Assembly: GCA_029820295.1 (NCBI GenBank)
Contig: JALGVA010000002.1
Location: 51,481 to 115,480, forward strand
Length of the DNA stretch: 64,000 bases
Direction: 5' to 3'
Source of the DNA: Candidatus Zipacnadia bacterium
GTDB lineage: Bacteria; Armatimonadota; Zipacnadia; Zipacnadales; UBA5352
Positions 50,834 to 55,339 of this stretch are shown here, in pieces; position 1 is the stretch's first letter, and every line of letters starts with the position of its first letter. Made by a program: the position numbers and the translations under genes. The notes below the pieces were generated by a model. The model had not been told where the DNA came from and made no database searches. It was given only the letters and a program-made list of their open reading frames with translations.

Positions 50834-50859
50834 TGTACATTGGTGACATATGACGTTTT
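50834..50859 (+). promoter_or_regulatory. AT-rich patch, possible promoter of the first prepilin-like gene
   Basis: TGTACATTGGTGACATATGA and the following bases are clearly more AT-rich than the surroundings and lie just upstream of the conserved leader at 50873. Possible -10 boxes are TACATT or CATATG. A shared GTGTAC also occurs before the second leader (around 51674). Assigned by composition and position only. Confidence 0.22.
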
Positions 50860-50872
50860 GCTCGCGACACAA

Positions 50873-50937
50873 GGAGGAATCATGGCAGAAAAGGAGGAAC
50901 ACATCGCCGTCGGGAAGAGCACGGCGAAGGGCATCTG
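50873..50937 (+). promoter_or_regulatory. Structured 5' leader of the first prepilin-like gene (copy 1)
   Basis: Two conserved boxes flank a hairpin: box 1 AGGAATC-ATGGCAGAAAAGG (to 50894), stem CGCCGT/ACGGCG at 50905-50910 and 50921-50926, box 2 GGGCATCTG at 50929-50937. The same order occurs at 51735-51814 before the second gene with a different stem sequence, which points to an RNA structure or cis-regulator. Class unknown; it does not match riboswitch consensus sequences I can recall. Confidence 0.45.
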
Positions 50938-50944
50938 TGCGTGA
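50882..50944 (+). CDS. Possible 20-residue leader peptide upstream of the first prepilin-like gene
   Basis: ATG 50882 follows an excellent AAGGAGG site (spacing 4-5) and opens a 20-codon frame ([20 protein letters not shown]) that ends in TGA 40 bp before the prepilin start. In the duplicated leader the corresponding ATG (51743) opens a frame that runs without a stop into the prepilin, so the peptide itself is not conserved. It may be translated as a regulatory leader, or the site may be part of the RNA element only. Confidence 0.3.
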
Positions 50945-50984
50945 GAGGGTCGCATCAATCTTGTCGAACAGAGAGGCGATAGTG

Positions 50985-51611
50985 ATGCGCAGGTCGGGCT
51001 TTACCCTGATCGAGCTGCTGGTCGTCATCGCGATCATCGCGATCCTGGCGGCCATCCTGTTCCCGGTCTTCGCGCGGGCGCGGGAGAAGGCGCGCCAGAC
51101 GAGCTGTCTGTCGAACCTCAAGCAACTTGGCCTTGCTCTCCAGATGTACGCACAGGACTACGACGAGTACCACCCGCGCTACTGCCGGGTTGAGGTCGCG
51201 GGCTGGGACGACGGGGTGAATGTGGGCGGGTACACCGTCTACAGCGGGCTCATCCCCTACGTGAAGAACACCCAGATCTTCGTGTGCCCCAGCGACCGGC
51301 CTCCGGGCCAGATCAACTGGAGCAGTTGGGGCTACAACATCACGACATATACCTCCTACGGCCTGAACTGGTACTACTACCTCTCGCCCCCCTACATGGA
51401 CGAGACCTTCAACGGCGACGACCCGGCACGGGTCGCGGCCATGACCGAGTTCGACGCCAGCTATCACACCGCGTACTGGCCGTGGATGAACAACGATGGC
51501 CTGTTCCTGCATAACGGCGGCCAGAACGTGGTGTTCGGCGATGGCCACACCAAGTGGTACAGCCGGACGGACATCATCAGCGGCTTCAACTCCTACGGCT
51601 ACAAGTCATAG
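50985..51611 (+). CDS. DUF1559-like prepilin-type N-terminal methylation protein, copy 1
   Basis: 208 aa from ATG 50985. The class III/type IV prepilin signature [17 protein letters not shown] is present, with predicted cleavage after Gly5 and methylation of Phe6, then the helix and the lineage-typical [19 protein letters not shown]. The C-terminal part has [18 protein letters not shown], the 'H.gG.N..F.DGH' motif of H-X9-DG proteins. These proteins are abundant in Planctomycetota and Armatimonadota and are thought to form pseudopilin- or type II secretion-like structures; exact function unknown. Start chosen because the prepilin leader must be short. Followed by a hairpin at 51639-51670. Confidence 0.92.
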
Positions 51612-51638
51612 CGCACGTCGCGAGGGAGTAGAACCTGC

Positions 51639-51670
51639 GGGCCCCGCGGGCTTGCCGCCGGGGGGCCCGT
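51639..51670 (+). terminator. GC-rich hairpin after the first prepilin-like gene
   Basis: CGGGCCCC (51639-51646) pairs with GGGGCCCG (51663-51670); an inner GCGG/CCGC extends the stem with a 3-nt bulge. No T-run follows, but TTCGTGTACCG after it resembles TCCGTGTACCG after the second gene's hairpin, so the terminator region was duplicated too. Confidence 0.6.
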
Positions 51671-51734
51671 TCGTGTACCGTATGCATGTGACCCCTCGTC
51701 CCCGCAGCATTCGGGTTGGGCCCACCGGCGAAAG

Positions 51735-51814
51735 AGGAATCCATGCAGAAAAGGCGAAGCCAGAACAGCGGCGTGCTTTCAGCCCGCCGACGCTCCTTAC
51801 GTGAGGGGCATCTG
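51735..51814 (+). promoter_or_regulatory. Structured 5' leader of the second prepilin-like gene (copy 2)
   Basis: Box 1 AGGAATCCATGCAGAAAAGG (51735-51754), a CGGCG/CGCCG stem (51769-51773 and 51785-51789) and box 2 GGGCATCTG (51806-51814) repeat the order seen in copy 1 although the spacer and stem sequences differ. The box 2 to start distance is 33 nt here and 47 nt in copy 1. Confidence 0.45.
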
Positions 51815-51847
51815 CATCCATCTCAGGCGACAGGAGAAGGTAACGCA

Positions 51848-52483
51848 ATGCGCAGGTCAGGTTTCACGCTCATCGAACTGCTGGTCGTCATCGCAATCAT
51901 CGCGATCCTGGCGGCCATCCTGTTCCCGGTCTTCGCCCGGGCGCGGGAGAAGGCACGGCAGACCAGTTGTCTGTCCAACCTCAAACAGCTCGGACTCGGT
52001 CTCGCGATGTACAGCCAGGACTACGACGAGTGCCACCCGGTCTACTGCCGGGTGGTGATCGCGCCCAGCTACACCAACGGCGTCGATACCGGTGGCCACA
52101 CGATGTACGGCGCGCTCGTCCCCTACGTCAAGAACGCCCAGATCTTCCAGTGCCCGAGCCACCGGCCCGTGACCGGCATCAACTGGAACAACTGGGGGTA
52201 CGCCATCACCACCAAGACGTCCTACGGCATCAACCTCTACTACCTGAACAACAGTTCCTACAAGTACGCCAGCGACACCCTCAGCAACGATGACCCGGCC
52301 CGCGTCGCCTGCATGACCGAGTGGGACGGCAGCTACCACTCCGTCTACTGGCCGTGGATGAACAGCGATGGCCTCTACCTGCACAACGGCGGCCAGAACG
52401 TCGCGTTCGCCGACGGCCACAGCAAGTGGTACAGCGAGACGGACATCGTTAGCGGCTTCGACCAGTACGGCTACAAGATGTAG
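51848..52483 (+). CDS. DUF1559-like prepilin-type N-terminal methylation protein, copy 2
   Basis: 211 aa from ATG 51848 (an in-frame ATG at 51743 would add a basic leader and is unlikely for a prepilin). The first ~52 residues are identical to copy 1, including [12 protein letters not shown] and [19 protein letters not shown]. The globular part is diverged but collinear ([33 protein letters not shown]). Same H-X9-DG ending. It arose by tandem duplication of a unit that includes leader and terminator. A fibre or pseudopilus subunit role is inferred from the leader peptide class. Confidence 0.92.
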
Positions 52484-54872: not shown

Positions 54873-55339
54873 TGCCGAAAGGGACCTCCAGTCGGGTCGG
54901 TCGCGGCGGTAGGGACGCACACCTGGTGCTTCGCCCTCGAAGGCGCACCGGCCTTCATGCCACGCGAGAGGAGCGCGCCCGCGGGCGCAGGAGACGCTCG
55001 CGTCGCAAACGCGAGCACCGACGGCGCAGCGGCGCAGACGTCGTGCCGAGTGCAGCGAGGCGCGAGACTGCGCCGCCACCGGCGATGCGCGCGGAGGTCC
55101 GTCCGAAGGACGGGGCGTAGCGCGCGAGCCGGCCGCGGGCGCCGACCGGTCGCTACCGGTCCCGGCCTGCCGCTGAGCACACCGTTCGGCCGATTGCGCG
55201 CGAAGACACATGCGCCTCACCCACGCCGTCGCCGTCAAGCTGCGCAACGTGCCATCAGGAGGTGCGGGCACGCGCGTCGCGAAGCCACTCGCACACCACC
55301 GAACGCGAAGCCGTCGCTCGACCAGGAGGACGCCACAAA
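54873..55339. other. 467-bp gene-free divergent region rich in hairpins
   Basis: No believable gene on either strand: frames are open but give Arg/Ala/Pro-rich translations with no ribosome site. It holds several inverted repeats: GCTCGCGT/ACGCGAGC (54996-55003 with 55009-55016), GCGGCGCAG with CTGCGCCGC about 30 nt apart (around 55028-55075), CCGTCC-GAA-GGACGG (55099-55113) and GACCGGT-CGCT-ACCGGTC (55144-55161). It must also carry promoters for both flanking genes. It could encode a structured RNA; high GC makes chance hairpins easy, so this is tentative. Confidence 0.5.

Follow-up and report, generated by a model that had tools for sequence, protein, structure and literature searches.

Small interspersed repeats, found as many similar intergenic copies with no coding capacity, have received close study in only a few groups of bacteria. 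The BOX repeats of Streptococcus pneumoniae (PMC3049150) are modular intergenic sequences of variable length, restricted to their lineage and predicted to fold if transcribed, with modules absent or multiplied in individual copies; terminal inverted repeats (TIRs) and target-site duplications (TSDs) have been reported for them. The REP/BIME/REPIN sequences with their RAYT enzymes (PMC2817692, PMC3116915) combine extragenic hairpins, mosaics and Y1 transposases in the same genome. The REP itself is a single palindrome of 20-40 nt with an unpaired GT(A/G)G head, an inverted pair of REPs flanks the rayt gene, and some enterobacterial REPs have tips of the C(GNA)G type (Table 1, PMC2817692). CGTC-tagged REPs (PMC3733652) consist of one short stem-loop, with a CCA-like tail and a CGTC tag that stays unpaired, and often form head-to-head dimers; they set a precedent for palindromic hairpin repeats that are not flanked by a transposase of their own. 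The MITE-like repeats ERIC, Correia/NEMIS, RUP and CIR (PMC2229807) are small, non-coding and dispersed, with stable stem-loops; most are A+T-rich and shorter than 200 bp, have TIRs with TA ends, and make TSDs.

Here we describe a repeat from an uncultured class of Armatimonadota, Zipacnadia, which was described from Guaymas Basin sediment (PMC10290634). With its many similar intergenic copies and lack of coding capacity it is a member of the broad class of small interspersed bacterial repeats, and its cloverleaf architecture is unusual there. Full copies measure ~380-440 nt and hold five hairpins, far longer units than REPs, CGTC-tagged or not, and longer than the MITE-like repeats, from which the high GC content also sets it apart (73% in the gap discussed below). 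Hallmarks of REP/RAYT and MITE systems were looked for and not found: no consistent GTAG head is present at the palindrome of full copies, and no TIRs are seen, the 5' palindrome not being complementary to the 3' tail. For TSDs the picture is less clear: no consistent one is seen in the 11 full copies, whose flanks share words of just 4-5 nt in 10 of the 11 and a 9-mer in L028, next to a 3' end that is not sharply defined. It shares with BOX the modularity, intergenic position, variable length, predicted fold and lineage restriction, and differs in that no TIRs or consistent TSDs are seen, in its GC-richness, in its four-way cloverleaf core and in the exchange of whole arms, a distinction drawn from the published description of BOX rather than from the boxA, boxB and boxC sequences. 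C(GNA)G tips are shared with the enterobacterial REPs mentioned above. The repeat is most likely akin in broad kind to BOX and REP/BIME, with an architecture for which we found no report.

The window gap and the repeat family

The window, meaning the whole 64-kb stretch of DNA that was analysed, is 95.3% coding by a codon-usage gene call, with a median intergenic gap of 72 bp. Its longest gene-free stretch in that call is 54873-55339 (467 bp), identical to the one singled out in an earlier note on this DNA. The gap separates divergent genes. The minus-strand gene on one side has DUF4962 and a heparinase II/III-like C-terminal domain; the plus-strand gene on the other carries domains of two types, FlgD Ig-like and agarase-type galactose-binding, and matches CBM_4_9 below threshold. 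ARAGORN found nothing tRNA-like. Open frames across the gap are unsupported as coding, because the copies described below differ by indels that break the frame. Elsewhere in the window (50850-52483) lie two adjacent paralogous genes with prepilin-type N-termini.

The gap almost certainly holds a copy, deleted at its 3' end, of a repeat that is dispersed between genes. Searched against the genome from which it comes (331 contigs totalling 5.63 Mb, 98.6% complete), the gap gave 28 matches including itself, nearly all limited to window positions ~54974-55204, and the best non-self match extends over 191 nt at 90% identity (E = 1.8e-67); this recurrence rules out chance hairpins. An nhmmer profile built from six other copies recovered the window copy with E = 1.4e-43 over profile positions 2-235 of 440, and ordinary spacer of ~100 bp is left on either side of it. 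Strong profile matches place the repeat, whole or partial, at ~48 places in this draft genome, and modules D and E (see below) were located at further places; all of these are minimum counts.

R1, a covariance model built on arm C, has 22 matches in the same genome, 8 in a genus-mate (G001), one in a member of another genus of the family (G005), and none in the remaining 288 genomes of a 291-genome phylum sample. A DNA search adds 2 partial copies in the genus-mate, bringing its total to ~10. The large searches ran with stricter filters, by which weak relatives of the repeat may be missed. In a pattern scan of one genome per species across 84,980 species, from which records of the window's own genome were possibly left out, the repeat appeared only in the Candidatus Zipacnadia MAGs Meg22_1214 Bin_164 and Bin_167, besides one chance match. 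The latter, L068 in a deltaproteobacterial MAG, is the sole match outside Zipacnadia in the genome collection and was rejected as a chance pattern match. The repeat is absent from the viral, phage and plasmid collections searched. Rfam 15 gave no match at the gathering score in the window or in 12 loci, and the weak matches in L013 all fall under that score. Since there is no Rfam entry, and nothing was found in the open-licence literature searched, the family appears to be undescribed. It is non-coding, modular and interspersed, and confined to one Armatimonadota lineage, whose relatives bear the name Candidatus Zipacnadia.

One stretch of 2.7 kb with a repeat copy (L016 in the window's genome, L107/L065 in the genus-mate) is 97% identical between the two genomes, and reflects either recent transfer or a mis-binned short contig. 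The flanks of the window copy, unlike this stretch, have no detectable match in the genus-mate.

Anatomy and fold of the element

Full copies (L013, L019, L017, L016, L010, L028 and L011, and in G001 L104, L108 and L109) have the following module order: a 5' palindrome GCGCCCGCGGGCGC; arms A, B and C; the sequence GCCGGCCGCGGGCGCC; a spacer; hairpin D; a second spacer; and module E, which consists of a mini-hairpin and a long GGGGAGGG...CCCTCCCC hairpin. Many also have a tail of the GCCGTT type. Because CCGCGGGCGC, which follows arm C, pairs with the first part of the palindrome, the core is a cloverleaf. In the window all parts lie on the plus strand. The 5' strand of the closing helix P1, GCGCCCGCGG, occupies 54975-54984; it is the first part of the palindrome, at which copy alignments place a sharp 5' end, and its pairs include compensatory changes. 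Arm A (54985-55027) has a GCGC base, CTCGCGTC, a CGCGAG tip and a covarying stem, five pairs of which show double change in alignment A3. Arm B (55029-55076), also marked by covariation, is based on GCGGCGCAG (55029-55037) and CTGCGCCGC (55068-55076), 100% complementary with 30 nt enclosed, the long stem among the inverted repeats that the earlier note had rightly reported. Arm C (55079-55132) reads CCGGC-GCGCGC-CCGTCC-GAA-GGACGG-GCGCGC-GCCGG and is the basis of R1. The cloverleaf is closed by the 3' strand of P1, CCGCGGGCGC at 55133-55142, on the evidence of pairing and compensatory changes. Comparison with full copies identifies 55182-55204, CCGTTCGGC...GCGCGCGAA, as what is left of the 5' half of hairpin D; the remainder of D and the whole of E are gone. 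By the profile and the own-genome matches the copy as a whole runs from 54975 to 55204. A possible remnant of the 3' tail, CTCACCCACGCCGTCGCCGTC (55214-55236), is put forward with low confidence from its likeness by eye to full-copy tails, and lies outside the profile match.

Other copies are incomplete in other ways. Many keep just the 3' part of the element, while the 5'-short copies L088 and L092 are internal deletions that retain the 5' palindrome. Extra hairpins lie inside module E in L090 (791-1027; tips of the CGCAG type) and in L104, which suggests that mini-hairpins come and go as whole units. The window's genome, G000, has short arrays of the hexamer (GCCGTY)n at ~16 places, some of them at 3' ends of the repeat and others elsewhere.

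How strongly the sequence folds relative to shuffled controls depends on the boundaries chosen. For the whole gap the excess over shuffles, a comparison that the earlier note had proposed, is marginal (z = -1.9 on the plus strand, -0.26 on the minus); it grows for 54980-55180 (-3.6 and -0.5) and is clear once the true ends of the 170-nt core, starting at ~54975, are used (-6.3 and -3.0). Over 20 copies the mean core z is -5.6 on the plus strand and -3.6 on the minus, with the plus strand folding better in 19 of them. Hairpin E is also very strong (z = -6.4). The same cloverleaf, with minor deviations, is common to the 20 folded copies, including those with swapped arms (L014, L026, L028, L113): arm B is shortened to GCAGCGC-GCA-GCGCTGC in L026 and replaced in L014, and arm A is shortened in L028, L011 and L113. 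Thus the shape is retained as the sequence and length of the arms change. This persistence of a multi-branch fold through arm exchange provides a natural experiment for asking if repeats of this sort are recognised by their shape.

In a 13-copy alignment of the core, 96.0% of cells pair, and compensatory double changes occur at 15 pairs (29 cells), a level reached by 0 of 500 shuffles, with at most 4 pairs in slid controls; arm C analysed alone shows 24 cells with compensatory change, every one of them inside the inner stem, again with 0 of 500 shuffles. The aligned copies are related, so these shuffle counts are not probabilities, and the slid controls preserve the relatedness. The double changes cluster in the hairpin arms, chiefly helices 3, 4 and 8, and two are found in P1, whose halves are ~150 nt apart (L016, L109). 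Mispairs, taken as a test of strand, show no clear preference, with G.U in 15 cases vs A.C in 7. C(GNA)G loops, which are exceptionally stable in DNA, cap 53 of the 75 perfect triloop hairpins in the elements, a count from non-independent copies in which several different hairpins carry such loops; none appears among 20 listed of the 32 perfect triloop hairpins in the window.

The fold and covariation bear out the earlier view that the gap hairpins exceed what an ordinary promoter needs. They also uphold the part of its proposal, a structured RNA encoded in the gap, that concerns a maintained secondary structure. The other part, an RNA gene particular to this locus, falls away, since the sequence is a dispersed intergenic repeat, here in a 3'-deleted copy, with mixed orientation to genes. 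One repeat copy was taken for an RNA gene, and the underlying observation is real; the case is a caution that folding or covariation detected at one intergenic locus may stem from a repeat and not from an RNA gene. The maintained structure may work as RNA or as single-stranded DNA.

Genomic setting and competing explanations

All scored copies are intergenic, in mixed orientation to neighbouring genes. The gene downstream of a copy is on the same strand in 28 cases and convergent in 22; where it is convergent, the 3' end of the element often falls 12-18 nt past the gene's stop codon, and the distance to a co-directional gene is mostly ~40-200 nt. As expected for a repeat, ~12 copies run into contig ends. 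One copy (L012) adjoins a C-terminal fragment of an SDR protein (profile positions 204-236 of 236, the last 33; E = 2e-11) and another (L022) a broken carbohydrate-binding-like reading frame with no Pfam match; in a draft MAG, either junction might be a product of assembly at the repeat. Nine relatives from the family were compared and yielded no demonstrable empty site, because the flanking DNA is too diverged in them.

We read the gap copy as a non-autonomous mobile hairpin repeat, moved in trans and now decaying, and give this explanation as a whole a probability of roughly 0.6. One rival reading is a functional multicopy structured RNA, the plus strand being transcribed at or near each copy and its regulatory or protein-binding cloverleaf being under selection. 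The strong plus-strand fold, the preference for that strand in 19 of 20 copies and the compensatory changes in long-range P1 all fit this, but orientation and distance to neighbouring genes are mixed, truncation is variable with whole modules lost, the repeat occurs in just three genomes of the phylum sample and has no Rfam relative, and a promoter scan, a weak test, found no sigma-70-like promoter in the gap; we consider such an RNA quite unlikely. The covariation might instead be a mutational effect on DNA in an inert repeat under no selection as RNA or single-stranded DNA, since quasi-palindrome correction by template switching can produce matching changes in hairpin arms without selection. 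The concentration of double changes in those arms, the exchange of arms as whole hairpins and the extra hairpins within E are in keeping with this, while the two changes in P1, with its distant halves, argue against template switching as the whole story, though their number is small, and the plus-strand folding bias is not predicted by it. We regard it as improbable as a full account; the repeat nevertheless bears on whether covariation in palindromic repeats arises by selection or by DNA template switching.

The short distance to convergent stop codons and the strength of hairpin E would suit co-opted terminators, insulators or mRNA 3' ends, in which E or the core would serve to end or shield transcripts. 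Against this, same-strand downstream genes outnumber convergent ones, a terminator scan found no T-run terminator in the gap, and the window copy, without E, sits between divergent starts, which makes the proposal highly improbable. We give least credence, and very little, to RNA-mediated (retro) spread, which would leave a 3' tail and copies truncated at the 5' end: GCCGTT-type tails and the many copies reduced to their 3' part fit that pattern, but PF00078 (RVT_1) has no match in the 98.6% complete genome, several 5'-short copies are the internal deletions noted above, and (GCCGTY)3 arrays are also found away from known copies.

Proposed route of spread

For the mobile repeat that we favour, we infer movement in trans by a hairpin-recognising enzyme. 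A transposase, the most plausible candidate being a single-strand HUH/Y1 enzyme of the IS200/IS605-RAYT type, would recognise the hairpins while their strand is unpaired with its complement, and copy or move the element into intergenic DNA. Deletion between short repeats, together with hairpin slippage, would then erode the copies and yield the truncated and mosaic forms. The window copy is probably passive, its insertion lengthening the promoter region between two divergent genes. A Y1 enzyme as the mover is a tentative suggestion, to which we give less than even odds. It is unlikely, though conceivable, that the repeat represents a new class of mobile element, whose signal would be the four-way cloverleaf in its entirety, its C(GNA)G-capped arms being interchangeable, read by shape and not sequence, as single-stranded DNA or RNA, by a putative enzyme.

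The window's genome does encode two RAYT-like Y1 transposase genes (L035 and L036), and the repeat, in contrast to REPs at rayt genes, has no copy flanking either. The first (L035:1300-1960, in G000:C228) has an inverted REP pair of its own, CGGCCGGGCTTCAGCCCGGCCG, on its flanks and makes up a typical RAYT/REP unit that is unrelated to the repeat. The second (L036:1280-2180, in G000:C218) lies among other palindromes, such as GGCACGGGCGTCCTCGCCCGTG and CGCTCATGAGCGGGAGCGGG.
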